Positions 42,263-64,000 of a stretch of DNA of 64,000 nt are shown in pieces. Source of the DNA: Hyphomonadaceae bacterium (GTDB lineage: Bacteria > Pseudomonadota > Alphaproteobacteria > Caulobacterales > Aquidulcibacteraceae); NCBI GenBank assembly GCA_016791385.1, contig JAEUMR010000072.1:1-64000 (forward strand), given 5' to 3'. The first letter of the stretch is position 1; each line of letters opens with the position of its first letter. A program made the position numbers and the translations under genes. The notes under the pieces are model-generated. The model was not told the DNA's origin. It was given only the letters and a program-made list of their open reading frames with translations, and did no database searches.

Positions 42263-43450
42263 TCACACGCGCCAGCGCAGCACCAACGCGGAAGGTTGCA
42301 GGAATTCGTAGCCGCGGGGAGGCTCAGTCTGCTCCAGGTCGACTTCGCACTCCGGTAGACGATCGAACAGGCGCGAGAGCGCGATCCGCACCTCGGCGCG
42401 CGCAAGGTTCGATCCCAGGCACGTATGCGGGCCGGTCGCGAAGGCGAGATGGCGGGCGATGTTATCGCGATCGATGTCAAAGCTGTCGGCGCCGGCGAAC
42501 ACGTCCGCGTCGCGATTGGCGCTGCCGAGCATGCAATTGATCAAGCTCCCCTGCTTGATCGCCACGCCGCGCACTTCGACATCGCGCGTGGCAACGCGCG
42601 TCGCCGCCTGCACCGGCGACAGCCAGCGCGCGCACTCTTCGATCGCACGCGGCAGCGCCTCGCGATCGCCGCGCACACGCGCCATCACATCGGGATGAAG
42701 AGCGAGCGCATAGAGCGTGTTGAGGGTGATCGCCTCCACGGTCGAGATGCCGCCGAAGAAAATGATCAAGGCGTTCTGGAGGATTTCTTCCTCGCTGAGC
42801 CGCGATTCCGGCGGTGTTTCGAGCAAGGCCGCAAACAGGCTCGCAGGCGGAAGCGCGCCGGGCGCCTGCAGGCGCGCGCGCATATGCGCTTTGAACTCCT
42901 CGACATAGTCCTTGGCGCGGGCCCTCACCGCGGGATCCCAAGTGTAATTGGCCAAGCCCGCCTCGAACGCGTCGTACCAGCGCCGCAGCAGCGCTTCGTC
43001 CTCCGGCGGCAGACCGAATACGGAGAGCATGACTTGCACCGGCAACCGGCATGCGAACGCATGGCGCAGTTCAACCGAACCGGCGCCTTCGAAGCTGTCG
43101 ATCAGACGATCGACCATCGCGGCGATGCCGCTCTCCAGCCGTTCACGCACGCTCTTGGGCGCAAACGGCCCGCGCAACGCCAGCCGCATGCGCACCTGCT
43201 CGGGACCGTCCGTGGTCATCATGTGCCGGCCGAAGGTGTCGTAGACCAGCATATCGTCGGCGCCGACGGCGAATGCCTCGTGGTCCTTCAATATGGCGGC
43301 GACGTCTTCGTGACGGGTGACGTAATACATGCCCAAGCGCTCGACCCAGGACACCGGTTCGTGCGCGCGCAATCGCGCCCACGCCGCATAGGGATCTGCG
43401 CTAAGCGCGGTTGGATCGATGGCGGCGCCGATGGGCCATGCCTCAGACAC
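42263..43450 (-). CDS. cytochrome P450 of the peptide-catabolic cluster
   Basis: A 395-residue P450 starting at GTG 43450, six bases after GGAG. The GTG overlaps the stop of the upstream M81 peptidase gene by 8 bp, so the two are coupled. The haem loop FATGPHTCLGSNLARAE places the thiolate at Cys344, and ExxR lies in EECARW. The I-helix reads FFGGISTVEA (residues 231-240), with Ser236 where Asp or Glu normally sits. That acid assists oxygen activation, so chemistry may be altered. Substrate is inferred to be part of the cluster's peptide or acyl compound. Confidence 0.93.
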   Translation of the reverse strand: MSEAWPIGAAIDPTALSADPYAAWARLRAHEPVSWVERLGMYYVTRHEDVAAILKDHEAFAVGADDMLVYDTFGRHMMTTDGPEQVRMRLALRGPFAPKSVRERLESGIAAMVDRLIDSFEGAGSVELRHAFACRLPVQVMLSVFGLPPEDEALLRRWYDAFEAGLANYTWDPAVRARAKDYVEEFKAHMRARLQAPGALPPASLFAALLETPPESRLSEEEILQNALIIFFGGISTVEAITLNTLYALALHPDVMARVRGDREALPRAIEECARWLSPVQAATRVATRDVEVRGVAIKQGSLINCMLGSANRDADVFAGADSFDIDRDNIARHLAFATGPHTCLGSNLARAEVRIALSRLFDRLPECEVDLEQTEPPRGYEFLQPSALVLRWRV

Positions 43451-44921
43451 GATGCTCTCCTTCAAGATGCGCGCCGGGCATCTCATCCAGCGGCCACATC
43501 GGCCGCGGCAAATGCTTGAAGGGCAACGCTGCGAGGTTGGGATTCATTGCCGTCGCCGAAGCGACGGACAGCACTTCGTCGCCACGATTGGCGAAGCCCG
43601 CGCGGAAATGATTGGAGGATTTTACGACAATGACGCGGTAATCCTCGATCCGCGCGCCTGTTTGCGTGAACAGGCCCGGCCAGAGCGCCTCGCGCCGCCG
43701 CCCGGTGAGGATGAGGTCGCCGCACGCGGTGGCGAAGCGCACGATCGGCCCTATCGGCGCGCCGGGCGCAGCGCCCAGCGGGGGCGACACCGATTGGGCG
43801 ATGCCCGCAACGCGGCCACTCACCACCAGCGGTGCGCCGGAATAGCGCGAGAGTTTGCCGCCGAGCGGCAAAGTGAGTTCAGCGCCTATTCCTGCTTGCA
43901 AGGCGCTTTCGAGCGCCGCGGCATCGTTGATGAGCGCTGCACCGATCTTGGCGATCCCCGACGCCCACAGTGGCGCAAGCAAGTGCGTTGAATCGCCGTC
44001 GCCGCCGCCGCCGGGATTATCGCACGCATCGGCGACGATGAACCGCTTCTGCGGCTCGGCGCGAATGCGGGCGATGCAATCGGCAACGCCGAGGTGAGTC
44101 TGCGCCGCCTGGTCCCGGATCGCGGTGAAACGCGCGCCGGCCGCATCGGCAAAGACCTGCGCGCGCTGACGGTCCCCGTCCGTGTAGACAAGCATCTTGG
44201 CGCCGTTGTCCGCGCTATCGGCCCAGGGAAAGCCGTGGATCAGCGAGACGGACAATACCCCCGCCGCTTTCTCGTCGTCCTGCATGCTGCGTACGAAGTC
44301 GCGCATCGGCGATCGCACCGTCGCGAAACCGCCCAAGGCCCGCAACGGCGTGACGGCGAATACCGGCCGGATAGCGCCCTTCCAGGCCGCAACGGTGAGC
44401 GCGAACAATTCTTGCGCCCGCTCGCGGATGTCGGTGTGGGGGTATTCCTTGTACGCCACGAGAATGTCGGCGGCTTCGAGCATGCGCTCGCTCAATGTCG
44501 CGTGCGGATCGAGCAAGGCGCCGATCTTGGCGGCGGCGCCGGCGATAGCGCGCGCGGCGGCGAGCAGATCGCCCTCGCAATCGGGCTCCCCTTCCGCCGC
44601 CATCGCGCCATGCAGATCGAGCAGCACGATATCGACGGGCGCAGCCGCCGTAAGGGCGGCAAGCACTTCATCGCGGAGTATGGCGTAGTCGCCGGCTGCG
44701 ACCACGCCGCCCGGCGTGGCCGCAGCCGCCGCGCCTCTGACGATGTCGGCGCCCGCCGCGCGCGCACACGCCAGCAGCGCGGCGTAGCCAGGATGCGCAT
44801 CTCCATCCAGCGACCCCTCGCCAGCGGCGACGTACGCGCTGGTGCGGAAGTCCGCCAGGGTCGTCGCATGCGGAACGAACGAATTCGTCTCGGTGCGCAG
44901 CGCGGCCACAAAAATGCGCAT
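43443..44921 (-). CDS. M81-family metallopeptidase (MlrC/microcystinase C-like)
   Basis: A 492-residue protein of peptidase family M81. It starts MRIFVAALRTETNSFVP, the typical N-terminus. Putative metal-site regions are VLLDLHGAMAAEGEPDCEGD and LLDPHATLSERM, with AYKEYPHTDIRERAQEL and DACDNPGGGGDGDSTHLL further on. The family includes MlrC, which finishes hydrolysis of linearised microcystin. ATG 44921 lies 4 bp from the shared regulatory motif at 44925-44938. It is the first gene of a unit with the P450. Confidence 0.92.
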   Translation of the reverse strand: MRIFVAALRTETNSFVPHATTLADFRTSAYVAAGEGSLDGDAHPGYAALLACARAAGADIVRGAAAAATPGGVVAAGDYAILRDEVLAALTAAAPVDIVLLDLHGAMAAEGEPDCEGDLLAAARAIAGAAAKIGALLDPHATLSERMLEAADILVAYKEYPHTDIRERAQELFALTVAAWKGAIRPVFAVTPLRALGGFATVRSPMRDFVRSMQDDEKAAGVLSVSLIHGFPWADSADNGAKMLVYTDGDRQRAQVFADAAGARFTAIRDQAAQTHLGVADCIARIRAEPQKRFIVADACDNPGGGGDGDSTHLLAPLWASGIAKIGAALINDAAALESALQAGIGAELTLPLGGKLSRYSGAPLVVSGRVAGIAQSVSPPLGAAPGAPIGPIVRFATACGDLILTGRRREALWPGLFTQTGARIEDYRVIVVKSSNHFRAGFANRGDEVLSVASATAMNPNLAALPFKHLPRPMWPLDEMPGAHLEGEHRV

Positions 44922-44924
44922 TTA

Positions 44925-44938
44925 TGAAGTTGACCTCA
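44925..44938. promoter_or_regulatory. cluster motif site 1 (TGA-N7-CTCA)
   Basis: TGAAGTTGACCTCA followed by TTTTTAC in the 68-bp gap between the divergent M81 and P1 peptidase genes. A plus-strand promoter overlaps it: -35 TTGACC (44930-44935), 17-bp spacer, -10 GACAAT (44953-44958). Confidence 0.65.
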
Positions 44939-44989: not shown

Positions 44990-46147
44990 ATGAAGCTGAA
45001 CGCTCGCACGCTCTTGCTCTCTGCCCTGGCTTGCGCCCTGGCCACGCCCGCCCTCGCGCAGACGCCGCCCCGCGCGCGCGATATCGGCGTGCCGTTCTCC
45101 GGTCAGCCGGGCCCCTTGAACGCCATCACCGATGTCGCGGGGGTGGAAGTCGGCCACGCCACCATCATCCGCGGCGAGGACATTCGCACCGGCGCCACCG
45201 CGGTGTTTCCGCGTGGGCGGCAGAACATCGCCACTGGCGTCACCGCCGCGGTCTTCGACTTCAACGGCACCGGCGAACTCACCGGCTCGCACCTCATTGA
45301 CGAGATCGGCGCCTTTTACGGGCCAGTCGTGCTGACCGGCACCACTGGCGTGGGCGCCGCGCGTGACGGCGTGCAGCGCTGGGTCGGGCGCGCATCCAAC
45401 GACCCCATGGTCCGCTACACGCAATTGCTGCCGGTGATCGCCGAGACTTATGACGGCGGACTGGGCGATGCATGGAGCATGGCGCTCACGCCGGACGATG
45501 TCGCGCAGGCCCTGGAGGGCGCGCGCGGCGGCCCCGTGCAGGAGGGATCTGTCGGCGGCGGCACGGGCATGGTCTGCTTCTACTTCAAGTGCGGCATCGG
45601 CACTGCTTCGCGCGTGGTCAGCTACGGGCCAGGCGCCTCCTTCACGGTCGGCGTGCTGGTGCAGGCTAACCAGGGCGTACGCGACCAGCTGACCATCGCC
45701 GGCGCGCCAGTCGGACGCGAAATTCAAGATCTTCAGCCGCGCCGCGCCACGGCCCCAGGTGAATCGACCGATGGATCGATCATTGTCATCATCGCCACCG
45801 ATGCGCCCTTGTTGCCCAATCAGATGGCGCGGCTTGCCCGGCGCGCAACGATCGGCCTTGGCCGCACCGGCGCGCAAGGCGACAGTGGTTCAGGCGACAT
45901 CTTCCTGGCGTTCACGACTGCAAATCCGGTCCCGGTCGGCAGCGAAGCGCCGCTCAGCTTCCAAAGCATCCCCAACGAAGCGCTCGATCCCCTGTTCGAC
46001 GGAGTCGTGCAGGCGACTGAGGAGGCCATCATCAACGCACTCGTTGCCGGGCGCGACATGCACGGGCGCGGCAATTCGATGGTGTATGGCATGCCGCAAG
46101 CGCGCGTTCGCCAAATCCTGCGCCGCCGCGGTTTGCTGGCCGACTAA
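44990..46147 (+). CDS. secreted P1-family (DmpA/BapA, S58) aminopeptidase
   Basis: A 385-residue N-terminal-nucleophile peptidase. ATG 44990 opens a signal peptide (MKLNARTLLLSALACALATPALA). The self-cleavage and nucleophile site is QEGSVGGGTGMVC, with Ser187 as the predicted new N-terminal nucleophile. The N-terminal GPLNAITDVAGVEVGHATI is typical. Characterised members release D-amino acids (DmpA) or beta-alanine and other beta-amino acids (BapA) from peptides. It probably acts in the periplasm, which fits a D- or beta-amino-acid peptide pathway. Confidence 0.93.
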   Translation: MKLNARTLLLSALACALATPALAQTPPRARDIGVPFSGQPGPLNAITDVAGVEVGHATIIRGEDIRTGATAVFPRGRQNIATGVTAAVFDFNGTGELTGSHLIDEIGAFYGPVVLTGTTGVGAARDGVQRWVGRASNDPMVRYTQLLPVIAETYDGGLGDAWSMALTPDDVAQALEGARGGPVQEGSVGGGTGMVCFYFKCGIGTASRVVSYGPGASFTVGVLVQANQGVRDQLTIAGAPVGREIQDLQPRRATAPGESTDGSIIVIIATDAPLLPNQMARLARRATIGLGRTGAQGDSGSGDIFLAFTTANPVPVGSEAPLSFQSIPNEALDPLFDGVVQATEEAIINALVAGRDMHGRGNSMVYGMPQARVRQILRRRGLLAD

Positions 46148-47154
46148 GCCTTCGCAGGCTGATCCGGCGCGAGCGTCATCAGGCAAAGAATCTCGAACAG
46201 CATCTGCGCGGCGGTCAGCGCCGTTGAGATGCTGGGATCATAGGCGGGGGCGACTTCCACCACGTCCCCGCCGATGACGTTGAGCCCGGCTAGGCCTGTA
46301 AGCGCAGCGATTGCCTGGCGCGCGCTTAAGCCTCCCGCCTCAGGCGTGCCGGTCCCGGGCGTGACGCTAGGATCGAGAACGTCGACGTCGAAGCTGACAT
46401 AAACCGGCGCGTCGCCGACCACCGCGCGGGCGCGCGCCACCACGCCGTCAACGCCAAGCGCGTCGACATCCTCCATGTGCAGCACCGTCATGCCGGAAGC
46501 GTACGAAAACTCCCAGCATGGCTCTGCGGCGCCGCGTATGCCAATCTGAATGGTCCGCTCCGGATCCAACACGCCCGCCAGCACGGCTTCGCGAAACGGG
46601 CCGCCATGGTGAAACTTCTTGCCGTCGATCGGGCCCTCGGTGTCGCAATGCGCATCGAAATGGATCAGCGCCAGCGGCGCGTCGCGGCCCAGCGCCTTTA
46701 AGATCGGCAGCGTGATCGAGTGATCGCCGCCAACCGTCAGCGGCCGGCATCCCGCAGCGGCGAGCGCGGCGAAGGTTGTCTCCAAATCGGCATGGCAGAG
46801 ATTGAGATCGTACCGCGATCGCATCGGCGCATCGCCAAGATCGGCAACGCGCCGGCGGCGCATCGGCTCGATCTTGTGCAGGTGATGGAACGGGCCGACG
46901 CGCTCGATCGCCCGCAAAGCGCGCGGTCCAAACCGGGCGCCGGGACGATTGGTGACGCCCAAATCCATCGGCGCGCCGATAAGGCCGATGTCATAGGCGC
47001 CAAGCCGCCCTTCTTCGATCGCCCGATAGTCCGCTGGTGCGCCAAGCAAGGTAAGCGGCTCGGCGCATCCTGGCTGCGTGTTCTCAACTGGTGTTGAGTC
47101 TGCCGTGGGCCAGCCAAATTGTGCGCGCAGGCGCTGGAGGAGTTCAGGGTTCAT
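46144..47154 (-). CDS. agmatinase/guanidinobutyrase-like ureohydrolase
   Basis: A 336-residue manganese hydrolase that splits a guanidino compound to an amine and urea. Metal ligands are visible: His145 in GGDHS, Asp167/His169/Asp171 in HFDAHCD, and the pair in SFDVDVLDPS. Length and the GVTNRPGARFGPRALR segment fit agmatinase, guanidinobutyrase or guanidinopropionase more than arginase. ATG at 47154. It is divergent from the acyl-CoA ligase across motif site 2, and its stop overlaps that of the P1 peptidase by 4 bp. It may process arginine-derived guanidines. Confidence 0.92.
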   Translation of the reverse strand: MNPELLQRLRAQFGWPTADSTPVENTQPGCAEPLTLLGAPADYRAIEEGRLGAYDIGLIGAPMDLGVTNRPGARFGPRALRAIERVGPFHHLHKIEPMRRRRVADLGDAPMRSRYDLNLCHADLETTFAALAAAGCRPLTVGGDHSITLPILKALGRDAPLALIHFDAHCDTEGPIDGKKFHHGGPFREAVLAGVLDPERTIQIGIRGAAEPCWEFSYASGMTVLHMEDVDALGVDGVVARARAVVGDAPVYVSFDVDVLDPSVTPGTGTPEAGGLSARQAIAALTGLAGLNVIGGDVVEVAPAYDPSISTALTAAQMLFEILCLMTLAPDQPAKA

Positions 47155-47214: not shown

Positions 47215-47228
47215 TGAGGCTAACCTCA
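47215..47228. promoter_or_regulatory. cluster motif site 2 (perfect palindrome)
   Basis: TGAGGCTAACCTCA, the most symmetric copy (TGAGG-N4-CCTCA), followed by TATTAAAG. It lies in the 95-bp gap between the divergent ureohydrolase and acyl-CoA ligase genes. On the minus strand TTTAAT, a 17-bp spacer holding the motif, and TAATGG form a possible promoter. Confidence 0.65.
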
Positions 47229-47249: not shown

Positions 47250-48839
47250 GTGACGCCTCCCGACACCCCGCTCAGCCGCATCGCCGCCGCCCGGAACGTC
47301 CACGCCATCGTCAAGCATTGGGCCGACGCGGCGCCGGATGCGGAAGCGATGGTGCATGACGGCAAGCGCACCAGCTACGCGCAATTGAACAGTCGTGTCG
47401 ACGCATTGGCGCGCGCGCTCTTGGCCGCCGGCGTCAAGAAGGGCGACCGCGTTGCGACTTTGCAGACGCCGCATCCCGAGTATGCGGTGGTGTTTCTGGC
47501 GACCGCCTCGATCGGCGCGATCTGGATCGGGCTCAACCCCAAATACCGCCGTGAAGAACTCGCCCACGTGGTGCGCGATAGCGAGCCGAGTTTGCTGTTC
47601 GCGCGCATGGACGTCGAAGGCCGCTCCTACGCCGAGGACGTCGAGGCGCTGTGTGCGCAGGCGAAGAGCATCAAGCGGGTCATCACCTTTGACGGCGATC
47701 CGCTTGGCAGCGGTGACTGCTATCTGAGCGCTTTCGTCGCCGAGGGCGCCGCTGTGAGCGCCGACGCGCTGGAGCGCGCGCGCACCGCAGTCGACAGCCG
47801 CGACCCGTGCCTCATCGTCTACACTTCAGGCTCCACCGGCGCGCCCAAGGGCGCGCTGCTGCACCATCAGGGCATCATCGCCTTCTCGCTCAAGCAGAAC
47901 GAGATTTGGCCATGCGATCCCCTGCGCACCGTGAACTACTTCCCGATCAACCATGTCGGCTGCGTGATCGATCTCACCATGCCCACCTTCGCGGCTGGCG
48001 GCGCGATCATCTTCATGGAGCATTTCGACCCGCGCGGCTGCCTCGCGCTCATGGCCGAGGAGCGCGTGACGATGTGGGGCTCCGTGCCCAGCGTGTTTCA
48101 GCTGCAACTCGAACTCCCCGACTTCGCCAGCTTCGATTTGAGCGCCGTGCAGATCATTGCCTGGGAGGGAGCGGCGATGCCGCGGGACATGATCGTCCGG
48201 CTCGCATCCATGTGCCCGAAGCTCGCGACCAATTACGGCATGACCGAAACGACAAGCGCAATCACCATCCAGGCGCCGACGAACGACATCGACATTCTGT
48301 CCAACACGGTGGGCACAGCGTTCCCGGGCGTCGAGATCCGGCTCGTGAACGATAAAGGCGAGGACGTCGCTGACGGCGAGCCGGGCGAGGTATGGACGCG
48401 CTCGCAATTCAACCTGCTCGGCTATTGGCGCCGGCCCGATGCCACTGCGGCCGCGATAACCGAGGATGGCTACTTCCGCACCGGCGATCTCGCCGTCCGC
48501 AACGCTGACGGTTACTACCGTATCGTCGGCCGGCTCAAGGAGATGTACAAGTCGGGCGGCTACAACGTCTATCCGCGCGAAATCGAGAGCGTGCTTGAAT
48601 CGCATCCGAATGTCGCCCTGGCTGCGGTCGTCTCCACGCCCGATCCGGTTTGGCAGGAAGTCGGCGTCGCCTTCATCGCGCCGGAAGGCGAGATCGACGC
48701 CGCAACGCTAAGCGCCTACTGCAAGGAGCGCTTGGCCAATTACAAGGTGCCGAAGCGGATCATCATCGAGCCCAATATGCCGCTGCTGCCGATCGGCAAG
48801 GTCGACAAACAGGCGCTAAAGCGCCGCGCAGAGTCATGA
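47250..48839 (+). CDS. AMP-forming acyl-CoA ligase
   Basis: A 529-residue adenylate-forming enzyme that activates a carboxylic acid as acyl-CoA. Motifs: LIVYTSGSTGAPKGALL (P-loop), NYGMTETTSAIT, YFRTGDLAV and GRLKEMYKSGGYNVYPREIE, ending PIGKVDKQALKRR with the catalytic Lys. GTG at 47250 is the start. It is followed after 1 bp by a crotonase gene, so the pair would activate and then hydrate an acid released by the cluster's hydrolases. The acid is unknown. Confidence 0.94.
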   Translation: MTPPDTPLSRIAAARNVHAIVKHWADAAPDAEAMVHDGKRTSYAQLNSRVDALARALLAAGVKKGDRVATLQTPHPEYAVVFLATASIGAIWIGLNPKYRREELAHVVRDSEPSLLFARMDVEGRSYAEDVEALCAQAKSIKRVITFDGDPLGSGDCYLSAFVAEGAAVSADALERARTAVDSRDPCLIVYTSGSTGAPKGALLHHQGIIAFSLKQNEIWPCDPLRTVNYFPINHVGCVIDLTMPTFAAGGAIIFMEHFDPRGCLALMAEERVTMWGSVPSVFQLQLELPDFASFDLSAVQIIAWEGAAMPRDMIVRLASMCPKLATNYGMTETTSAITIQAPTNDIDILSNTVGTAFPGVEIRLVNDKGEDVADGEPGEVWTRSQFNLLGYWRRPDATAAAITEDGYFRTGDLAVRNADGYYRIVGRLKEMYKSGGYNVYPREIESVLESHPNVALAAVVSTPDPVWQEVGVAFIAPEGEIDAATLSAYCKERLANYKVPKRIIIEPNMPLLPIGKVDKQALKRRAES

Positions 48840-48840
48840 C

Positions 48841-49599
48841 ATGACCACTGTCCAGCTAGAGCGCCGGGGCGCCATCGCGATCGTCACGCTCAACCGTCCC
48901 GATTGCCTGAACGCGATCAGCGACCGCCTGCTGACCGATTTCCAAGCGCGCCTAGACGAGGCCGCCGGCGACGCCCAAGCGCGCGTGCTTGTTCTGCGCG
49001 CCGCCGGCCGAGCGTTCTGCGCTGGCGATGATCTGAACGAGCTCGCGCAAGCGGAATATGACGAAGACCTCGCCAAGGACTTCATCGGTCGGCTTCAGAA
49101 CATCACCCGTTCGCTCATGCTCGGCCGCCAGACTGTGATCTGCGCGGTGCAGGGTTATGTTGTCGGCGGCGGCGTGGCCTGGCCCCTGAACGCCGACTTC
49201 ACCGTCTTCGCCGACGACGCCGTCCTCTTCACGCCGGAAGCAACGCACGGCTTGTTCGCCTCCGGCGGCACGACGCTGCTGCTTGCACGCCGTTGCGGAC
49301 AGGAGGCGGCCAATCGCATTCTGCACTTCGGCGACCGCATCGACGCAGCCGGCTTGCTGCGCATGGGCATTGCCGGCGAAGTCGTGCCGAGCGGCTCGCT
49401 TGAACGGCGGACAATGGAGCTGGCGGAGCAACTCTGCGCGCTGCCGCCGGAATCGCTGATCCGCCTCAAGGCGGCGAATGCAGATCTGATCCGCGACGCG
49501 CTCGAACAGGCGCTGGCGATCGAGTCGGTGCATTGCATAGAGGCTTCGCTTGACGCCGCCGCGCGTGCGCGCGCCGCCCAGAAGCTCAGCCGCGCCTAG
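48841..49599 (+). CDS. enoyl-CoA hydratase/isomerase (crotonase family)
   Basis: A 252-residue crotonase-fold enzyme. Oxyanion-hole segments are AGRAFCAGDDLNEL and VQGYVVGGGVAWPLNADF; the active-site acid region is LFTPEATHGLFASGG. It hydrates or isomerises enoyl-CoA in beta-oxidation-like steps. It is translationally linked to the ligase (1-bp gap) and ends with a 4-bp overlap with the convergent M55 peptidase gene. Confidence 0.92.
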   Translation: MTTVQLERRGAIAIVTLNRPDCLNAISDRLLTDFQARLDEAAGDAQARVLVLRAAGRAFCAGDDLNELAQAEYDEDLAKDFIGRLQNITRSLMLGRQTVICAVQGYVVGGGVAWPLNADFTVFADDAVLFTPEATHGLFASGGTTLLLARRCGQEAANRILHFGDRIDAAGLLRMGIAGEVVPSGSLERRTMELAEQLCALPPESLIRLKAANADLIRDALEQALAIESVHCIEASLDAAARARAAQKLSRA

Positions 49600-50440: not shown

Positions 50441-50962
50441 TCAGAGGTCGACGCTCACGCTGCCGCCGCCACCCTCTTCGCCACGGCTGCGCTCGAACAC
50501 GATCAGCTTAATAACAGCCAGCAGCAGGATAAGCGCGGCGTAGATCGGGACGATGGCGCCGACAAGGCCCATATTCCAGCCGAGCGCCTCGGAGTCGCGC
50601 GCAGACGCGCGCGAAATGAAGCCCGGCGAATAATAGAGAACGACAAGAGTAAAGATCGCCACGCACAAAGTACGCGACCACGCCTGCACGCGGCGCAGCC
50701 AAAACGGCTTGTCGCGCCCCACGGGCGTCAACACCGGATCGGCGTCGGTTTGAAACGCCACCACCCCGCCCAGCAGCCCCGCCCACACCATCGCAAACCG
50801 CGCCGCTTCCTCGGTCCAGGCCGGCGCTTCCTCGAAGATGTAGCGGCCGACGATCTGCAGCACGATCAGCATGATCATCGCCACCGTCAGCGCGGCGGCG
50901 CTCGCCCAGATGAAGGCATTCGCGGCGCGAACGACAGCGGCAAAAGACCAGCGTGGGCTCAT
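50441..50962 (-). CDS. TRAP transporter small permease (DctQ type)
   Basis: A 173-residue protein with four hydrophobic segments, including ALTVAMIMLIVLQIVGRYIFE, the DctQ signature, and FAMVWAGLLGGVVAFQ. It partners DctM in the inner membrane. The start overlaps the binding-protein stop by 4 bp. Confidence 0.9.
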   Translation of the reverse strand: MSPRWSFAAVVRAANAFIWASAAALTVAMIMLIVLQIVGRYIFEEAPAWTEEAARFAMVWAGLLGGVVAFQTDADPVLTPVGRDKPFWLRRVQAWSRTLCVAIFTLVVLYYSPGFISRASARDSEALGWNMGLVGAIVPIYAALILLLAVIKLIVFERSRGEEGGGGSVSVDL

Positions 50963-55522: not shown

Positions 55523-56938
55523 ATGAAAGCCTTTGCGCGCAGCATTTTCGCCGTCACCATCCTGGCCGCACCGCTGCTGGCGGCCTGCGCCGCCCAGGCG
55601 CCGGCGCGGAGCGAGACAGCAGCCATTGGGGCCCTGCTCACGGATGTGCAGACCAACGCGCCCTATGCTGGAGTCGCTGTCTCCGTTCGTCGCGGCCAAG
55701 AGGTGATCTACGAGGGCGGGCTCGGCCTGGCCGATCTGGAAAACCAGGTCGCGGCGACGCCGGAAACCGTCTTTCAGGTTGGCTCGATCACCAAGTCCTT
55801 CACCGCGATCTTGGTCGCCCAGCTCGCGGTTGAGGGGCGTATCAATCTTGATGCGCCGGTCAGCACGTATCTTCCTGACTATCGCGGCCCCGCGCGCAAC
55901 GCGCCGGTGCGGACGCTGATGAACCACACCAGCGGCCTCGTGAACTACACCGCCGCGCCGGCCTTTCCGCATGCCACGCGGCGCGCCTTCACACGCGCCG
56001 AAATGCGCGCGTTCTTCGAGAACGAGCCGTTGATGTTCGAGCCGGGAACGGCCTTCTCATACTCCAATTCAGGCACCTATCTCCTCGGCCTCATCGTCGA
56101 GTCGGTGACGGGGCAGGAATATGCGACAGTGGTGCATGACCGCATCTTCGCGCCGCTCGGCCTTGAACACACTTATTATGGCGGCTGGCGGCAAATCATC
56201 CCCCATCGCGCCCACGGCTATGTGCATGGCGAAAATGGGTTCGCGAATGCGCCCGAACTTGAAGACCTGATCCCGTTCTCGGCCGGCGCGCTCGATTCCA
56301 CCGTGGGCGACATTCAGCGCTACCTTGACCAAGTGCATCGCCAGAACGCCTTTGGCGATCGCGTCCGCGACATTCTCTATACGCACGCGACCTTGGGCGA
56401 CGGCACGACGCTCGAATACACCCTTGGCGCACTGCTGATGCGCGACTGGGAAGGTCATCGCAAGATTGCCCATGCTGGCGATATCGACGGTTTCTCCGCC
56501 TACATGTCGTACTATCCTGACGACGATATCTCGATCGTCGTTCTCGCCAACACGCGCGACGTGGCGCCGACACCAGTTGGCATCGAACAGAAGATCGCGC
56601 GCATGCTCTTTGGCATCACGCGGCCAGCGCCGTCCGAGACGCCGCTACCAGCATCGGAGATCGCGGCGCTCACCGGTGATTATCATTCCGGCGCGCTGCG
56701 GGTCGGCATCGACGTCGTCGGCATCGTGCCGACTGAAACCGGCATCGCCTTCCGCATGGGCGGCGTCAACGCGGAAGGCCCGGCCATTCCGCTCGTGCAT
56801 CTAGAGGGGCGCCGCTTCGCCGCCGCGCATGATGACGAGATGGTGTTCGCGTTTGGTCCGGAGGGATCGGCGCCGACCGATCTGTCCGTGGACTGGCTCG
56901 GCGGCACGATTCCGTTCCATCGGCCCGCGCCGCACTAA
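55523..56938 (+). CDS. beta-lactamase/MlrB-type serine hydrolase lipoprotein
   Basis: A 471-residue penicillin-binding-protein-like hydrolase. A lipoprotein signal (ILAAPLLAAC, Cys22) is followed by the catalytic SxxK at Ser88-Lys91 (GSITKSF), YSN at 180-182 and HAGDIDG in place of KTG. The C-terminal 110 residues form a lipocalin-like domain often found in this family. Relatives include D-aminopeptidases, D-stereospecific hydrolases, esterases and MlrB, which opens linear microcystin. Periplasmic and membrane-anchored. Confidence 0.9.
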   Translation: MKAFARSIFAVTILAAPLLAACAAQAPARSETAAIGALLTDVQTNAPYAGVAVSVRRGQEVIYEGGLGLADLENQVAATPETVFQVGSITKSFTAILVAQLAVEGRINLDAPVSTYLPDYRGPARNAPVRTLMNHTSGLVNYTAAPAFPHATRRAFTRAEMRAFFENEPLMFEPGTAFSYSNSGTYLLGLIVESVTGQEYATVVHDRIFAPLGLEHTYYGGWRQIIPHRAHGYVHGENGFANAPELEDLIPFSAGALDSTVGDIQRYLDQVHRQNAFGDRVRDILYTHATLGDGTTLEYTLGALLMRDWEGHRKIAHAGDIDGFSAYMSYYPDDDISIVVLANTRDVAPTPVGIEQKIARMLFGITRPAPSETPLPASEIAALTGDYHSGALRVGIDVVGIVPTETGIAFRMGGVNAEGPAIPLVHLEGRRFAAAHDDEMVFAFGPEGSAPTDLSVDWLGGTIPFHRPAPH

Positions 56939-56944: not shown

Positions 56945-57934
56945 TTACCCCCAGAACGAACTGGCCGGCGGCGTGACGACTTCTCCCGAATACGTCGCGC
57001 CGCCGGATCTGTCTTTGGCCAGCAACACTGGCCCGTCCAGATCGACAAACGAAACGCCGGCGCGCGCTACGACAAAGCCCGGCGCCATCGACAAGGATGT
57101 GCCGGCCATGCAGCCGACCATGGTCCTCAGTCCGCGCCGCCGCGACTCGCGTTCAAGCCGCAGCGCTTCGGTCAGCCCGCCGGTCTTGTCGAGCTTCACA
57201 TTGATCACATCGTAGCGCCGCCGCGCGACATCGAGGTCCGCAGTATCGAAGCAGCTCTCATCGGCGGCCAGCGGCACAGCGCTGCGATACGCTTCGAGCG
57301 CGTCGTCGGCGCCCGCAGGCAAGGGCTGTTCCAGCAGCGCCAAGCCCAGACGCGCGAGCGCCGGGCTGACCTCCTGCAATTGCGCGAACGAAAGCGCTTG
57401 GTTGGCGTCGGCGATCAGCATCGCATCGGGACGCGCGCGCCGCACTGCTTCGACCTGCCCGACCGGATCGCTTGCATCGACCTTGAGTTTCAGACGCACG
57501 CCGCGGCGCGCGCGCGCCGCAACCGCCATGTTCTGCGGCGAATCCAGGCTGATGGTCGAAAACGTTTCGACCGGCCCCGGCGCCACGCCGGTCAGCTCCC
57601 AAATCGAGCGGCCAGCCTGCTTACACTTCAGGTCCCACGCTGCGCAATCCAGCGCATTGCGCGCGGCGTAGCTCGTGAGCTGCGCGAAGACCTCCGCATA
57701 CGCAGCGCCTGCTGAAAAGGCTTCAGCCGCGCGCTGCAACTCGGCCGCGCCGCACTCGGCGTTGTCGTCACGGTAGAACACGCCGATGCCCTCGCCGCGC
57801 CCAAAATGCTCGCCAGCGCGGAGTTCAGCGGCAATGACATCCACCGCTTCGATCGAAGCGAAAGAGATACGCAGCGGCGCCGCGAGCGGCCAGGTCTCGC
57901 GCGCGACCCGCAGCTCAAGCCGCCCGTCGATCAT
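56945..57934 (-). CDS. dgcA: N-acyl-D-glutamate racemase / dipeptide epimerase (DgcA)
   Basis: A 329-residue enolase-superfamily epimerase. Catalytic pair Lys151 (LKLKVD) and Lys247 (NVKLDKTGG), and metal ligands Asp176, Glu202 and Asp225, are all present. The family acts on L-Ala-D/L-Glu dipeptides. Next to DUF1611 it corresponds to DgcA, which converts N-acetyl-D-Glu to the L form. The start overlaps the dgcN stop by 4 bp, so the two are coupled. Confidence 0.9.
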   Translation of the reverse strand: MIDGRLELRVARETWPLAAPLRISFASIEAVDVIAAELRAGEHFGRGEGIGVFYRDDNAECGAAELQRAAEAFSAGAAYAEVFAQLTSYAARNALDCAAWDLKCKQAGRSIWELTGVAPGPVETFSTISLDSPQNMAVAARARRGVRLKLKVDASDPVGQVEAVRRARPDAMLIADANQALSFAQLQEVSPALARLGLALLEQPLPAGADDALEAYRSAVPLAADESCFDTADLDVARRRYDVINVKLDKTGGLTEALRLERESRRRGLRTMVGCMAGTSLSMAPGFVVARAGVSFVDLDGPVLLAKDRSGGATYSGEVVTPPASSFWG

Positions 57935-58938
57935 TTCGCACCGAGCAAGCGGTCGACAATGGCCGCAGCCCCCGTACGAATCGGATCGATCACAGGCAAG
58001 TCGAGCATGCGCTGCACACGGTCGATTTCGCGCGCGGCGGCGTCGGGCGTCAGGTCCACCGTGTTGAGGCTGACCCCCGCGCAATAGAGGGCGGGACTGG
58101 TGAGCCGTCCCGCTTCGACATAGCGCGCGATCGCCTCGGCGTAAGACGGCGTTTTGAAGCCTGGATAGAAGGAAATCTCGTCGCGCCCGATTTCATGGCA
58201 CAAGACAATCGCCTCAGGCTGCGCGCCGTGCAGCAAGCCAAGCGTCACCCCGGCATAGGCGGGGTGAAACAGCGAGCCCTGGCCTTCCACCACATCCCAG
58301 TGATCGGCGGCCGCGGCCGGCGCCAGCACTTCTCCAGCACCCGCGATGAAATCGCTGATCACGGCGTCGACGGCAAAGCCACGCCCGGAGATGAGCACGC
58401 CGGTCTGGCCTGTGGCGCAGAAATCAGCGTCGGCGCCGCGCGCGCGCAGCTCCCGCCAGATCGCAAGCGCTGTGTACTTCTTCCCCACGGCGCAATCGGT
58501 GCCAACGGTGAGCACACGCCGGCCTGACCGCGCAACGCCCTTGGCGATCGGCAGATCGGCTGGCGGTTCACGCAGATCATGCATGCGGCACCCGCGTTCC
58601 CGCGCCTTGGCGCTCAGCACCGGGTCGGCGTTCAAACGCTGATGCAAGCCCGACGCGATATCGAGCCCCGCGTCGAGAGCGGCGAGCAATTGCGCGCGCC
58701 AGTCTTCGCCGAAGCGGCCACCAATTGGCGCCACGCCGACGACGAGCGTGCGCGCGCCAGCCGCTACCGCCTGTTCGACGCTCATGTCCGGCAAGCCAAG
58801 ATCGAGCGCGTCAGCGGTCCAACGCAATTGTCCAAGGCAGCGCTCCGGGGCCCAATCCAGGACGCCGCGCGCGGTCTTGGCCAGCCGGCGATCCTTGGAA
58901 TCGCCCAGACACAAAAGAAATGGCGGCTCTACGCTCAC
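57931..58938 (-). CDS. dgcN: DUF1611 D-glutamate N-acetyltransferase (DgcN)
   Basis: A 335-residue DUF1611 protein. The GTG at 58938 follows AAGGAGG and gives the typical start EPPFLLCLGDSKD. The P-loop-like VGTDCAVGKK lies at residues 145-154, followed by WDVVEGQGSLFHPAYAGVT and CHEIGRDEISFYPGFK. DgcN acetylates D-Glu, and DgcA then inverts it, feeding D-glutamate into ordinary metabolism. Divergent from the carboxylase across motif site 4. Confidence 0.88.
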   Translation of the reverse strand: MSVEPPFLLCLGDSKDRRLAKTARGVLDWAPERCLGQLRWTADALDLGLPDMSVEQAVAAGARTLVVGVAPIGGRFGEDWRAQLLAALDAGLDIASGLHQRLNADPVLSAKARERGCRMHDLREPPADLPIAKGVARSGRRVLTVGTDCAVGKKYTALAIWRELRARGADADFCATGQTGVLISGRGFAVDAVISDFIAGAGEVLAPAAAADHWDVVEGQGSLFHPAYAGVTLGLLHGAQPEAIVLCHEIGRDEISFYPGFKTPSYAEAIARYVEAGRLTSPALYCAGVSLNTVDLTPDAAAREIDRVQRMLDLPVIDPIRTGAAAIVDRLLGAK

Positions 58939-58986: not shown

Positions 58987-59000
58987 TGACGCCAGCCTCA
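58987..59000. promoter_or_regulatory. cluster motif site 4
   Basis: TGACGCCAGCCTCA followed by TTTTTTC in the 124-bp gap between divergent dgcN and the acyl-CoA carboxylase. TTGACG at 58986-58991 could be a plus -35, but the matching -10 is weak. Confidence 0.6.
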
Positions 59001-59062: not shown

Positions 59063-62000
59063 ATGCAGATAAAGAGTTTGCTCATCGCCAATCGAGGCGA
59101 GATCGCCCTGCGCGTCATCCGCGCGGCGCGCGAATTGGGCGTTGAGACCTTCGCCGTCTATTCAGCCGACGACGCCAACGCGCCGCACGCAGCGCTCGCC
59201 GATCACGCCCTCGCCCTGAGCGGGATCGGGCCGCGCGCTTACCTCGATCAAGCGCAGATCGTCGGCGCGGCGCGCGGGCGCGCACAGGCGATCCACCCAG
59301 GCTATGGCTTTCTCAGCGAGAACGCAGCGTTCGCGCGCGCCGCCGCCGCCGCTGACATTATCTTCATCGGGCCCTCACCTGAGACCCTCGATCTGTTCGG
59401 CGACAAGGCCAAAGCGCGCAGCTTCGCCAGCGATCTCGGTGTGCCGATCCCCACCGGCACGCCGCACGATTGTAGCGCCGAGGACGCCCGCGCCCTGCTG
59501 GCCTCGATGGGGCCGAACGGCAAAATCGCCGTCAAGGCGCTGTCAGGCGGCGGCGGGCGGGGTATTCGCTTCGTCAGCGCCGCTGACGATATGGACGAGA
59601 CATTCGAGCGCTGCCGCGCCGAAGCGCGGCTCTCGTTCGGTGATGATCGCCTCTACGCCGAGGAGATGATCGCCAATGCCCGCCACGTGGAGGTTCAAGT
59701 GGTCGGCGACGGCGAGGGCGCTGTTCACCTCGGCGAGCGAGACTGCACGCTGCAGCGGCGCAACCAAAAGTTGGTCGAAATCGCGCCCGCGCCATTCCTG
59801 ACCGACGCTACCCGCCGCAAGCTGCATGAAGCCGCCCTCAAGCTCGCGACTGCGGCCCGGCTGCGCGGCGTCGCCACTTTCGAATTTCTGCTCTCAGGCG
59901 CGGGCTCGCGATCGCCGCGTTTTGTCTTCATCGAAGCCAATCCGCGCATTCAGGTCGAGCACACGATCACCGAGGAAATCACCGGCGTTGACCTGGTTCG
60001 GGCCCAGATCGAAATCGCAAGCGGCCGCTCGCTGGCCGAATTGGGGCTCGCCGAGCGCTCGCCCAGCGCGCGCGGCAGCGCCATCCAAATTCGCGTCAAC
60101 GCCGAGATCGTCAGCGCCGCGGGTGCCATTCAATCCGCAGGCGGCCGGATCAGCGCGTTCCATCCCCCCGGCGGGCCTGGGGTGCGGATCGATTCCGCCG
60201 CCCGCGCCGGCATGCAAAGCAATCCCGCCTTCGATTCACTGCTGGCTAAGCTGATCGTTCGTGACAGCGACTACCCACGCGCGCTCACCCGCACCCGCGA
60301 AGCGTTGAGGGAATTCTTGATCGAGGGCGTTCCGACCAATCTCGCCTTCGTCCGCAGCATTGTCGGCCGCCCCGAGGCGGAGAGCTATGACGTGCATACT
60401 GCCTTCGTGGAGGAACACTGGTCCGAACTCGTCGCGACGGCGCAGGGCCTCGCTCCTGTTCAGACCAGCGCCACCTCGCCCATCGGCAGCGCGGCGGAAA
60501 CACCGATCGCGCCACCAGGGGCCGACGCCGTCAGCGCACCCATGCAAGGCACAGTCGTGCATCTCGCCGTTAGCGTTGGCGATCATGTTGCGCCGGGCGA
60601 TCCGATCGTCGTGCTCGAAGCCATGAAGATGGAGCACGTCGTCAGCGCCGATCGCGCTGGCCGCATCATCGCCGTTCACGCCGGCGCCGGCGACATCGTC
60701 ACCGCCGGCGCGGTGATCGCCTTCCTCGCTCCCGGCGATGCGCCCGAAGAAAGCAAGCGCACGGCAGCCGAAATCGATCTCGATCAGATCAGGCCTGATT
60801 TGGCCGAAATTCAGGCCCTGCACGCGTTTGGTCTTGACGAGAACCGGCCTGAGGCGGTCGCCAAGCGGCGCAAAGCCAACAAGCGCACCGCGCGCGAAAA
60901 CATCGCTGACCTTTGTGACGACGGCGCCTTCGTCGAGTACGGTGCGCTCGCCGTCGCCGCGCAACGCACGCGGCGCTCGCTCGATGACTTGCGCCGCGCC
61001 ACCCCCGCAGACGGGCTTGTCGCCGGCCTGGGCGCCGTGAACGGCGCACATTTCGGCGCCGAGGCCGCGCAATGCGCCATCATGGCCTACGACTTCACGG
61101 TGCTCGCAGGCACCCAGGGGTACATGAACCACCGCAAGAAGGATCGCGTGCTGCACCTTGCCCGCGATTGGCGCCTGCCCACGATCATCTTCACCGAGGG
61201 CGGCGGCGGCCGGCCAGGCGACACCGACCTCCTCGCCCCGACTTGGCTTGAGATGACGACATTCCGCGACTACGCGGCGCTAAGCGGGCTCGTTCCGCGC
61301 ATCGCCATCAATGCCGGATACAGCTTCGCCGGTAATGCCGCGCTGGTCGGCTTGAGCGATGTCGTCATCGCCACCGAGGATTCCAGTATCGGCATGGGCG
61401 GCCCGGCGATGATTGAAGGCGGGGGTCTGGGTGTTGTCCCTCCGGGCGAGGTCGGCCCCACCGCTTCGCAAGCGCCGGCTGGCGTTGTTGATCTTGTGGT
61501 CAAGGACGAAGCCGAAGGCGTCGCCGCCGCGAAAAAGTACCTCGCATATTTTCAGGGACCGCTGCGCGAATGGCGTTGCACAGATCAGCGTCTGCTACGC
61601 CACCTCATCCCCGAAAACAGGATGCGCGTGTACGACATCCGCAAAGTCATCGAGACGCTTGCGGACGATGATTCCGTTTTGGAGCTGCGGGGCGCTTTCG
61701 GCCGCGGCATGGTCACCGCGCTGATCCGCATCGAAGGCCACCCGTTCGGCCTGATCGCCAACGACCCCAGCCACCTCGCTGGCGCCATCGACGCCGACGG
61801 CGCGGACAAGGCCGCGCGTTTTCTGCAATTGTGCGACGCTTTCAACCTCCCCGTGATTTCGCTCTGCGACACGCCAGGGTTCATGGTTGGCCCCGCCGCC
61901 GAGAAGACTGGGCTCGTGCGTAAGGTCTCGCGGCTTTTTCTGATCGGCGCGCAGATGCGCGCGCCGATGTTCACGATCGTCTTGCGAAAGGGCTACGGGC

Positions 62001-62341
62001 TCGGCGCCCAGGGCATGACCGCCGGTCATTTCCACGCCCCCGCTTTCACTGTCGCCTGGCCAACGGGCGAGTTCGGCACCATGGGCCTGGAAGGCGGCGT
62101 GCGCCTGGGCTTCAAGAAGGAATTGGAAGCCGCGCCGGACGAGGCGGCGCGTGCCGCGCTCTATCAGCGGCTCGTGGCCGAGGCGTACGAAAAAGGCAAA
62201 GCGTCTAATGCCGCTGCGTTCCTGGAGATCGACGCCGTCATCGACCCGCGCGACACCCGCCACTGGGTGCTGCGCGGACTGCAAGCGACCCGGCGCAGCG
62301 CGCACGAGGACCGCGGCCCGCGTTTCGTCGATTCCTGGTGA
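59063..62341 (+). CDS. single-chain acyl-CoA carboxylase (BC-BCCP-CT fusion)
   Basis: A 1092-residue biotin enzyme. Residues 1-445 are biotin carboxylase: SLLIANRGEIALRVIRAA, VKALSGGGGRGIRFV and FIEANPRIQVEHTITEE. The biotinyl domain has EAMKMEHV with Lys522. From about 570 to the end is a carboxyltransferase with both halves fused (FTEGGGGRPGDTDLL, CDTPGFMVGPAAEKTG, FGTMGLEGGVRLGF). Most bacterial acyl-CoA carboxylases split these over two or more chains; one-chain forms are known as long-chain acyl-CoA carboxylases. It would carboxylate an acyl-CoA from the cluster's ligase. Confidence 0.93.
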   Translation: MQIKSLLIANRGEIALRVIRAARELGVETFAVYSADDANAPHAALADHALALSGIGPRAYLDQAQIVGAARGRAQAIHPGYGFLSENAAFARAAAAADIIFIGPSPETLDLFGDKAKARSFASDLGVPIPTGTPHDCSAEDARALLASMGPNGKIAVKALSGGGGRGIRFVSAADDMDETFERCRAEARLSFGDDRLYAEEMIANARHVEVQVVGDGEGAVHLGERDCTLQRRNQKLVEIAPAPFLTDATRRKLHEAALKLATAARLRGVATFEFLLSGAGSRSPRFVFIEANPRIQVEHTITEEITGVDLVRAQIEIASGRSLAELGLAERSPSARGSAIQIRVNAEIVSAAGAIQSAGGRISAFHPPGGPGVRIDSAARAGMQSNPAFDSLLAKLIVRDSDYPRALTRTREALREFLIEGVPTNLAFVRSIVGRPEAESYDVHTAFVEEHWSELVATAQGLAPVQTSATSPIGSAAETPIAPPGADAVSAPMQGTVVHLAVSVGDHVAPGDPIVVLEAMKMEHVVSADRAGRIIAVHAGAGDIVTAGAVIAFLAPGDAPEESKRTAAEIDLDQIRPDLAEIQALHAFGLDENRPEAVAKRRKANKRTARENIADLCDDGAFVEYGALAVAAQRTRRSLDDLRRATPADGLVAGLGAVNGAHFGAEAAQCAIMAYDFTVLAGTQGYMNHRKKDRVLHLARDWRLPTIIFTEGGGGRPGDTDLLAPTWLEMTTFRDYAALSGLVPRIAINAGYSFAGNAALVGLSDVVIATEDSSIGMGGPAMIEGGGLGVVPPGEVGPTASQAPAGVVDLVVKDEAEGVAAAKKYLAYFQGPLREWRCTDQRLLRHLIPENRMRVYDIRKVIETLADDDSVLELRGAFGRGMVTALIRIEGHPFGLIANDPSHLAGAIDADGADKAARFLQLCDAFNLPVISLCDTPGFMVGPAAEKTGLVRKVSRLFLIGAQMRAPMFTIVLRKGYGLGAQGMTAGHFHAPAFTVAWPTGEFGTMGLEGGVRLGFKKELEAAPDEAARAALYQRLVAEAYEKGKASNAAAFLEIDAVIDPRDTRHWVLRGLQATRRSAHEDRGPRFVDSW

Positions 62342-62443: not shown

Positions 62444-62457
62444 TGAACTTGGCCTCA
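62444..62457. promoter_or_regulatory. cluster motif site 5
   Basis: TGAACTTGGCCTCA followed by ATTTTAATA, 23 bp before TonB receptor 2. A plus promoter overlaps it: -35 TTGAAC (62443-62448), 16-bp spacer, -10 TAATAG (62465-62470). Confidence 0.65.
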
Positions 62458-62479
62458 ATTTTAATAATAGGGAGGGGAC

Positions 62480-64000
62480 ATGCGCCAATCGATGGTTCTG
62501 CTGGGAGCGCTCAGCCTGCTTGGGGTGGTCGAGACCGCGCATGCGCAGGAAAGCGCAGACCAGGGCGGGCTCGAGGAAATCATCGTCACCGCACGCCGCC
62601 AGGAAGAGCGGCTGCAAGACGCCCCCATTTCGGTGACCGCGTTCACCGCCGCCGGCATGGAGCGGCTGGGCATCGATAACGTCGCCGATGTCGCGCGCCG
62701 CACGCCGGGCCTGCAGTACGGCAATTTCGGCGACGTGAAGCTGTCGCCGACATCGCTGCGCGGCATCATCGGCAGCTCCGGTTCGGCCGGATCGGACCCC
62801 GCCGTCGGTTATTACGTCGACGAAGTGTTCGTGGGCCAGGGCGCGGGCGCAAACCTTGATCTCTATGACATCGCGCGCGTGGAAGTGCTGCGCGGGCCGC
62901 AGGGCACCTTGTTTGGACGCAACACCGTCGGCGGCGTCATCAGCCTGACGACGCAGCGCCCGAGCGACGAGTTCGAGGCCTCGGCTCAGGCCACTTACGG
63001 CAATTACGATTACTCGCGCATCGGCGCGTCGATCTCGGGTCCGCTCGGCGATCGCGCCCGCGCAGGGCTCTCGGCGGTGTTCACAAGCCGCGACGGGACC
63101 TCCGACAACGTCGTGCTCGGCCGCGATGTCAACACGCTCGGCTCATACTCCATCCGCGCCGCGCTCGATCTCGACATCGGCGACCATTCTTCGCTGCAGC
63201 TCAACGCCGATTATCGCGGCGTCGATGAAGAACCGCTGGTGTTCGAAACCCTCCGCTACAACAATGCGATGCTGCTGCCGAATCTGCTCGACGCTTACAG
63301 CCTCGACCGCAACACCAATCCTTATGATCGCGTCGTGTACACCGACGATGTCAACACCGAGCAGCTGGATGCCTGGGGCCTGTCTGCACGGTTCTCCACC
63401 CGCATTGGCGGCGTCGACCTCACCAACATCACCTCCTATCGCACGCACGACTATTACAGCCGCGTCGACACCGATCGCTCGGCGCTGCGCATCGCTTATG
63501 ACGGCGACCCGGAAGAAATCTGGCGCGCTTCGGAAGAACTGCGGCTCAACTGGAACACGGGCGCGTTCGCCTGGCTCGCCGGCGTCTACTATTACGTGCA
63601 GGACGGCGCCAACCAGAGCTTCATCGAAATCGGCGCGGACCTTGCCGACCTCTTCGGCGATCCCGGCCTGACCGGCGTGCTCGCTGGTTCTGATGCGCAA
63701 ATGACGACCACCAGCGCCGCCGCGTTCGGCAGCGTGACCTGGACCGCCACCGATCGCTTCGACATTACCTTGGGCGGCCGCTATGTCCGCGACGATAAGG
63801 AAATCGATTACGTCCAAAGCGATCCGCTGGGGATTCTGGGCGGCTCTGGCGCGATCCAAGGCGACGATTCGTGGACGCAGTTCACCCCCAGCATAAATCT
63901 GCGCTACCGCCTCCAGCCCGACGTGCTGACCTATCTGACGGTCTCGCAGGGCTTCAAGAGCGGCGGCTTCAACGACGCGCTGGGCGACGCCAACGGCATC
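62480..64000 (+). CDS. TonB-dependent outer-membrane receptor 2 (partial, runs off the window)
   Basis: An open frame of 507 codons with no stop before the window ends. ATG 62480 follows GGGAGGGG. Signal peptide MRQSMVLLGALSLLGVVETA ends in HAQ. TonB box EEIIVTARRQEERLQ, plug VEVLRGPQGTLFGRNTVGG, and barrel strands with NITSYRTHDYYSR and ITLGGRYVRDDKEIDY follow. It differs clearly from receptor 1 and is probably for another form of the same substrate. Its promoter carries motif site 5, so it belongs to the cluster. Confidence 0.95.
   Translation, partial: MRQSMVLLGALSLLGVVETAHAQESADQGGLEEIIVTARRQEERLQDAPISVTAFTAAGMERLGIDNVADVARRTPGLQYGNFGDVKLSPTSLRGIIGSSGSAGSDPAVGYYVDEVFVGQGAGANLDLYDIARVEVLRGPQGTLFGRNTVGGVISLTTQRPSDEFEASAQATYGNYDYSRIGASISGPLGDRARAGLSAVFTSRDGTSDNVVLGRDVNTLGSYSIRAALDLDIGDHSSLQLNADYRGVDEEPLVFETLRYNNAMLLPNLLDAYSLDRNTNPYDRVVYTDDVNTEQLDAWGLSARFSTRIGGVDLTNITSYRTHDYYSRVDTDRSALRIAYDGDPEEIWRASEELRLNWNTGAFAWLAGVYYYVQDGANQSFIEIGADLADLFGDPGLTGVLAGSDAQMTTTSAAAFGSVTWTATDRFDITLGGRYVRDDKEIDYVQSDPLGILGGSGAIQGDDSWTQFTPSINLRYRLQPDVLTYLTVSQGFKSGGFNDALGDANGI

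Follow-up and report, generated by a model that had tools for sequence, protein, structure and literature searches.

Few bacterial loci are known to us that consume D- and beta-linked peptides. The described systems closest to the one discussed here are the mlr pathway (mlrA, mlrB, mlrC and mlrD), the DgcN-DgcA catabolism of D-glutamate (D-Glu), the dpp-ykf genes of Bacillus, and the BapA/DmpA peptidases of family S58, also called P1. D-Amino acids are described as part of recalcitrant marine dissolved organic matter (PMC10845958). In the present work, we examine a gene cluster in a stretch of 64,000 nucleotides (nt), called the window, from a Hyphomonadaceae bacterium; the window lies within the 122.9-kb contig C24 of a 2.65-Mb assembly that is 83% complete. 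The cluster, which spans about 27 kb, is probably a catabolic regulon under a TetR-family regulator, composed of two merged modules, for the uptake and catabolism of acylated or beta-linked peptides containing D-Glu. Its kind, a TonB-linked catabolic regulon of TetR type, is a known one.

The cluster resembles the mlr pathway in having an exported S12 hydrolase, an M81 peptidase without a signal peptide, an MFS transporter and beta-oxidation enzymes. It differs in that it has no member of the MlrA family, its M81 protein scores far under the MlrC cut-off and has lost several MlrC residues (see below), and it adds a P1 peptidase, an M55 peptidase, a TRAP transporter, two TonB-dependent receptors, dgcN-dgcA, and a TetR regulator with its operators. 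The DgcN-DgcA system has its counterpart in two adjacent genes that overlap by 4 nt and for which the two corresponding models are the best NCBIfam matches, although the scores are slightly below the equivalog cut-offs and the pair is embedded in a peptide and acid regulon. The dpp-ykf system, which includes genes for an LD-carboxypeptidase and a gamma-D-Glu endopeptidase, likewise combines an M55 D-aminopeptidase, an enolase-superfamily enzyme of epimerase type and a peptide importer. The cluster, in contrast, has TRAP and TonB transport in place of the ABC importer, adds P1, M81 and coenzyme A (CoA) enzymes, and shows neither an LD-carboxypeptidase nor a gamma-D-Glu endopeptidase family among its genes. 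With BapA/DmpA, finally, the cluster P1 protein shares near full-length homology, the context of the serine and, by inspection, export, but the cluster P1 proteins are set apart by pairwise identity, with at least 59% to the P1 of the window.

According to Pfam and NCBIfam profiles, the cluster consists of 20 genes and ends at about 69.1 kb on contig C24. The window edge at 64000 cuts the gene of the second receptor, and the genes for an S15/CocE hydrolase, an MFS_2 transporter, a MaoC protein and the TetR regulator lie beyond it. A preliminary description of the window had outlined a 22-kb block as one regulon with a shared upstream motif. It was right on the content, the motif and the unity of the locus, and all 16 of its family assignments are borne out by the profiles, but it was too narrow on the extent, as its 3' boundary was simply the window edge, with four more genes beyond.

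A single regulon is supported by a palindrome close to TGAGGTYRACCTCA, which is found at six promoters and is placed to serve all 20 genes. The first site, TGAAGTTGACCTCA (44925..44938), lies between the M81-P450 unit and the P1 gene; the second, TGAGGCTAACCTCA (47215..47228), between the ureohydrolase gene and the ligase-ECH pair; the third, TGACGTTGGGCTCA (55471..55484), between the unit of receptor 1, TRAP and M55 and the S12 gene; the fourth, TGACGCCAGCCTCA (58987..59000), between dgcN-dgcA and the carboxylase gene; and the fifth, TGAACTTGGCCTCA (62444..62457), upstream of the genes for receptor 2 and S15. Each of these five is kept at the same place in the related genome G023. A matrix made from the ten sites of the window and G023 located the sixth at 68319 of the contig, between the MaoC-MFS_2 unit and tetR, with a score of 30.6; this site overlaps an in-frame ATG that could be the tetR start. 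The shared motif is real. An IUPAC pattern derived from these six sequences has exact matches in the 2.65-Mb assembly at those six places only. With one mismatch allowed, it gains three additional places and a match to site 2 read on the opposite strand, while the reversed control gives one.

The matrix was also applied to other loci, at a threshold of 20 that was fixed after the first scan. All 13 cluster loci outside the training set, several of which are close relatives of one another, have between two and five sites each at this threshold, some of them inside overlong open reading frames from a crude gene caller, and the Markov shuffles (40 per locus) give at most one site each. No site reaches the threshold in any of ten control loci, eight with a distant P1 and two with another dgcN, and in loci L097-L099 no operator scores above 17.7. 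A scan for promoter consensus sequences gave 2 matches against 2.2 expected.

A TetR homologue is present in all 15 module loci, and none was found in the three congeners searched that are without this kind of P1 and S15 (G005, G008 and G020). In locus L015, an open reading frame at 6336-7310 (-) was rejected as a gene, being displaced by the better-supported tetR on the opposite strand. Two marks of a TetR-controlled regulon are present, the linked TetR gene and the shared palindromic operator. Together they tie the putative transcription units to each other and, with the conserved gene set, strongly support one regulon.

The gene set is conserved among relatives. In G023, 16 window genes occur in identical order and orientation with 67-91% identity, and seven additional genomes, belonging to other families, have a core of 10-11 genes with 36-70% identity. 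The G023 assembly is based on nanopore reads only, and its dgcN, dctM, carboxylase, S15, tetR and probably M81 genes are frame-broken, perhaps by sequencing indels. P1 proteins are found at E<=1e-60 in 50 of 398 genomes of the order and have at least 59% identity to that of the window in nine, every one of which has it within the cluster. These nine carriers of module A (the window genome, G023, G167, G199, G091, G106, G310, G037 and G154) span four families of the order; all have receptor 1, DctM, DctP, DctQ, M81, P1, S12, dgcN and TetR, and eight have dgcA. The preliminary description had proposed a neighbourhood search and had taken scattering of the genes in relatives as the outcome that would speak against it. 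The search was run, the set proved to be conserved, and the proposal was not refuted on this point.

The next P1 of the order has 52% identity, and that of Sphingosinicella soli 55%, outside such a cluster. Class-wide, among 385 genomes (own included), a P1 of at least 59% occurs only in the window genome and G037, with three others at 49%. Of the 41 genomes with a weaker P1, the loci of 10 (48-52%) were examined and none shows the cluster, although in G223 and G172 the contigs, 5-6 kb long, do not allow a decision; G258 has weak matches to S12, ligase, ECH and dgcA, and G078 to ureohydrolase and TRAP. Plasmid relatives were rejected, the 70 records for P1 and the 61 for receptor 1 all having less than 60% identity (45-47% for the 20 P1 matches listed, 30-33% for the 10 receptor matches listed). 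A dgcN match of any kind is present in 9 of 61 genomes, comprising the window genome and relatives.

Some looser resemblances were also noted. A Rhodoferax metagenome-assembled genome (MAG) contains a parallel betaproteobacterial cluster (L098, 1-16475) with a Rieske oxygenase, M81 (38%), DAO, ureohydrolase (34%), S12, a TonB receptor, MFS, P1 (52%), a TetR-like protein, ECH, ligase and alkylsulfatase. In L160, L161 and L099 (Sphingosinicella soli and a Burkholderiales MAG), dgcN is located beside S12 or at most about 5 kb from it, outside modules A and B, with a TonB receptor also near dgcN in L160. Four dgcN loci were found in Sphingosinicella soli, none of them a module A.

As judged from its distribution in the relatives, the locus merges two modules, each of which also occurs apart. 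Module A consists of receptor 1, TRAP, M81, P1, S12 and dgcN-dgcA, and module B of receptor 2, S15, MaoC, MFS_2, ligase and usually ECH. S15 is found at E<=1e-100 in 9 of the 398 genomes, all of which have a locus with receptor 2, S15, MaoC, MFS_2, ligase and TetR; ECH is present in seven of these nine module-B loci. In six of them (the second locus of G310, G022, G089, G345, G278 and G124), the 20-36 kb that were fetched contain no module A, and module B, when apart, keeps its own TetR and operators. In G124 (L153), dgcA, dgcN and S12 adjoin module B, and in G310, where about 0.1 Mb separates the two modules, each of them has a TetR and operators of its own. A single cluster with both modules is found in the window, G023 and G167, that of G167 also including S15, MFS_2, MaoC and TetR. 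The ligase of the window is of the module-B type, with 55-65% identity to module-B ligases versus 40-45% to those of the module-A-only loci. Receptor 1 has 57-85% identity in the eight other module-A loci. The six module-A-only loci and G167 have an SDR protein and a PhyH oxygenase in addition, and the six also an SBF symporter.

Other genes are more narrowly distributed. Among the nine module-A loci, the P450 and ureohydrolase genes are restricted to the window and G023, the P450 with 85% identity in the latter and with no match of at least 34% in the other seven. M55 is found in three of the nine, i.e. the window, G023 (78%) and G167 (60%), and G022 has a full-length carboxylase match on a different contig from its module B. 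The earlier proposal is supported as far as one regulon is concerned, but not, so far, for full catabolism, for co-expression or for every gene in one fixed pathway, with P450, ureohydrolase and M55 outside the core and module B separable.

On the basis of these results we infer the transcription units, the direction of regulation and the compartment of each step, as follows. The TonB-dependent receptors of module A (TBDR1, 53258..55414, -; PF00593/PF07715) and module B (TBDR2, 62480..64000, +, continuing past the window) would bring the D-Glu-containing acylated or beta-linked peptide into the periplasm. There it would be cleaved by three hydrolases. The P1 peptidase (44990..46147, +; PF03576, 352 bits) is predicted to be of the beta-peptidyl/D-ester aminopeptidase type. 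By full-length match and serine position it is a member of S58/P1, its best solved match being the beta-peptidyl aminopeptidase BapA (3n2w, 328 bits, near full-length), and its Gly262-Ser263 aligns to the Asn-Ser of BapA; we take Ser263 to be the nucleophile. The S12 serine hydrolase with beta-lactamase fold (55523..56938, +; PF00144, 229 bits) has, by inspection, an SITK motif, and its best solved match is alkaline D-peptidase (4y7p). The S15/CocE hydrolase (64527-66503 of the contig, +) most resembles cocaine esterase and, to a lesser degree, alpha-amino-acid ester hydrolase. Inspection indicates a signal peptide on P1 and lipoboxes on S12 and DctP, and none of M81, M55, DgcN, DgcA and the ureohydrolase shows a signal peptide.

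The TRAP transporter, consisting of DctQ (50441..50962, -; PF04290), DctP (50959..51954, -; PF03480) and DctM (51951..53237, -; PF06808), would import small acidic or D-peptide pieces. Its genes belong to a putative unit tbdr1-dctM-dctP-dctQ-M55 that is headed by the receptor gene; the overlaps reported in the preliminary description are present, with 4 nt each for dctM/dctP, dctP/dctQ and dgcN/dgcA and 8 nt for M81/P450. The closest solved relatives of DctP, by sequence and by fold search, are 4ngu and 4n8g, where the fold search, made with a mediocre model (pLDDT, the predicted local distance difference test, of 61), repeats the sequence result. These two structures are presumably complexes with D-Ala-D-Ala. 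The freed acid would probably be taken up by MFS_2, whose gene is followed by that of MaoC, both on the minus strand between S15 and operator 6.

In the cytosol, the M81/MlrC-like zinc peptidase (43443..44921, -; PF07364/PF07171) and the M55 D-aminopeptidase of the DppA family (49596..50426, -; PF04951, 283 bits) would complete the hydrolysis. The DgcN-like DUF1611 protein (57931..58938, -; NF041892) and the DgcA-like racemase/epimerase of the enolase superfamily (56945..57934, -; NF042940) would convert D-Glu into L-Glu via N-acetyl-Glu, where the N-acetyl step is suggested by the names of the NCBIfam models. A route from D-Glu to L-Glu by way of DgcN and DgcA is mentioned in PMC10845958. Degradation of the acid would be the task of the AMP-forming acyl-CoA ligase (47250..48839, +; PF00501), the enoyl-CoA hydratase/isomerase family protein (ECH, 48841..49599, +; PF00378), whose gene is separated from that of the ligase by 1 nt, MaoC, and a single-chain biotin-dependent acyl-CoA carboxylase (59063..62341, +) with a fused biotin carboxylase (BC-BCCP-CT). 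Among solved structures, the ligase best matches fatty-acyl and feruloyl CoA ligases, and the carboxylase long-chain acyl-CoA carboxylase (4rcn, 1087 bits). In this species, extra groups may be dealt with by the cytochrome P450 (42263..43450, -; PF00067, 105 bits), encoded by the last gene of the M81-P450 unit, and by a guanidino-acid hydrolase, the arginase-family ureohydrolase (46144..47154, -; PF00491), whose best solved match is 3-guanidinopropionase (3nip, 271 bits). The TetR protein (gene matched at 68426-69100 of the contig and ending at about 69127, +; TetR_N 35.5 bits, cut-off 24) would act as a repressor at the six promoters, including that of its own gene, until it is released by an intermediate.

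The class of substrate is reasoned from these families. D-Glu as the amino acid is suggested by the homology of DgcN and DgcA, slightly below the curated cut-offs as it is; a beta- or D-linkage by P1, S12 and M55; an acyl partner by ligase, ECH, MaoC and carboxylase; and a guanidino acid by the ureohydrolase. The preliminary description had also allowed for a cyclic peptide, to which no gene points.

It is important to point out that several observations weigh against the proposed regulon and substrate. DgcN (449.7 bits, cut-off 480) and DgcA (360 bits, cut-off 400) match at the family level, under the NCBIfam equivalog cut-offs, although these are still the best-fitting models, the G154 locus showed no dgcA, and the Rhodoferax genome with the parallel cluster has no dgcN match. 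P450, ureohydrolase, carboxylase and M55 do not belong to the core, which makes it doubtful that all genes serve one fixed substrate. A looser operator pattern gave 73 matches in the genomes of nine relatives, 28 in the clusters and 45 elsewhere, compared to 11 for the reversed control, and further targets may lie outside the clusters in these genomes. TetR is the predicted regulator through its position and conservation, and the literature yielded no expression or biochemical data for these loci. Among the titles and abstract openings listed by literature searches, none describes the gene set, which is weak evidence of absence. On the other side, the operator of the locus is defined, its regulator is linked and its core is clear, and it has relatives in other families of the order, including a Maricaulis MAG; the operator and the core make the regulon directly testable.

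A more specific version, which we put forward tentatively as a minority view, is that the locus represents a complete mlrA-independent, TetR-controlled system by which aquatic Caulobacterales mineralize phytoplankton peptides of Adda-D-Glu type or others with beta-amino acids and D-Glu. It would have arisen by fusion of a D-Glu-peptide module with an acyl-acid module and would be a kind of catabolic regulon that is not known to have been described. If cyanobacterial peptides are the food, this would be a removal route missed by mlrA monitoring. A freshwater cyanobacterial setting is documented for G023 only, which originates from an amoeba culture from Lake Zurich that received Planktothrix rubescens A7 as food (PMC9584324).

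We consider it unlikely, though possible, that the cluster acts more narrowly on microcystin, nodularin or a linear fragment of either. M81 and/or P1 would here release Adda from D-Glu without MlrA, DgcN and DgcA would take the D-Glu, the ureohydrolase would act on the arginine part, and the CoA ligase, ECH and MaoC would take Adda to phenylacetate. Adda is indeed a beta-amino acid adjoining D-Glu, and for Sphingopyxis YF1 its breakdown is reported to proceed through an aminotransferase, a CoA ligase, beta-oxidation and the paa genes (PMC11446756). PaaA is present in the window genome, G023 and G022, but absent from the other seven of the ten genomes searched, all of them module-A carriers. 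The culture of G023 provides a link to cyanobacteria and would fit if strain A7 makes microcystin. The Rhodoferax MAG groups P1, M81, S12, ureohydrolase, DAO, Rieske oxygenase, ligase and ECH, but its genome lacks dgcN. No family of the CPBP/MlrA type occurs among the 20 cluster genes, a genome-wide CPBP search not having been made, and the D-glutamate genes that PMC9144602 names for a microcystin degrader are murC/D/I and gdhA, not dgcN-dgcA.

The M81 protein itself gives a mixed answer. Its closest solved chain is MlrC (7ylq), and its residues E11, H104, D138, H140 and H162 correspond to the zinc-site residues E39, H133, D167, H169 and H191 of MlrC (chain numbering; residue list from PMC12474180 and PMC9982164). 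In the first 204 alignment columns, to which the mapping is confined, N41 and Y189 of MlrC are retained as well, but W59, F67, E70 and F96, reported as mutated in PMC9982164, are changed to V31, L38, D41 and A67. The score of 315.9 bits with the MlrC model NF041767, compared to a cut-off of 999, corresponds to a match at the family level.

Salvage of peptidoglycan stem peptides, in which D-Glu and D-Ala pieces of murein are imported and recycled, is improbable in our judgement. The M55 peptidase (DppA), the AEE-like enolase enzyme, the S12 D-peptidase and the importer do resemble the outline of dpp-ykf, and DctP is closest to 4ngu and 4n8g, which are presumably D-Ala-D-Ala binders. However, no amino-sugar, amidase, LD-carboxypeptidase or DAP family is found among the cluster genes, the CoA ligase, ECH, MaoC and carboxylase would be without a role, and DgcA fits the DgcA model better than that of L-Ala-D/L-Glu epimerase (360 vs 218 bits).

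Nor do we think it likely that the locus breaks down a lipopeptide or acyl-amino-acid antibiotic produced by neighbouring organisms, for detoxification as much as for food, with S15/CocE and S12 opening ester and amide bonds and the CoA enzymes degrading the released fatty acid. The relationships of S15 to cocaine esterase and alpha-amino-acid ester hydrolase, of the carboxylase to long-chain acyl-CoA carboxylase, and of the ligase to fatty-acyl and feruloyl CoA ligases would fit such a function. On the other hand, the cluster genes include no family for efflux or target protection, unless MFS_2 exports, and the two outer-membrane receptors together with the TRAP importer argue for feeding. 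A chance neighbourhood of unrelated hydrolases and transporters, finally, is very hard to credit, because even though P1 proteins are not rare in the order (41 of the 50 genomes with it are without the close type), the genes are conserved together across families at 36-70% identity and share operators.

A few further observations concern the surroundings of the proposed regulon. On another contig of the window genome (L148, C60:1-13911), a second S15 (55%) is accompanied by a class III aminotransferase, a CoA ligase and a TonB receptor, and a similar set adjoins module B in G022 (L133, C23). Near the end of the 17-kb contig C73 of the window genome there is a second dgcN (52-53%), where the best operator score is 11.6 and no other cluster gene was matched. 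In the window, near the P450 gene, a gene for acyl-CoA thioesterase II (TesB, 40976-41815) has no match at the G023 flank and was treated as outside the cluster. At 37777-40296 there is an open reading frame of 839 amino acids that is rich in Ala and Glu and has, by eye, the appearance of a coiled coil.

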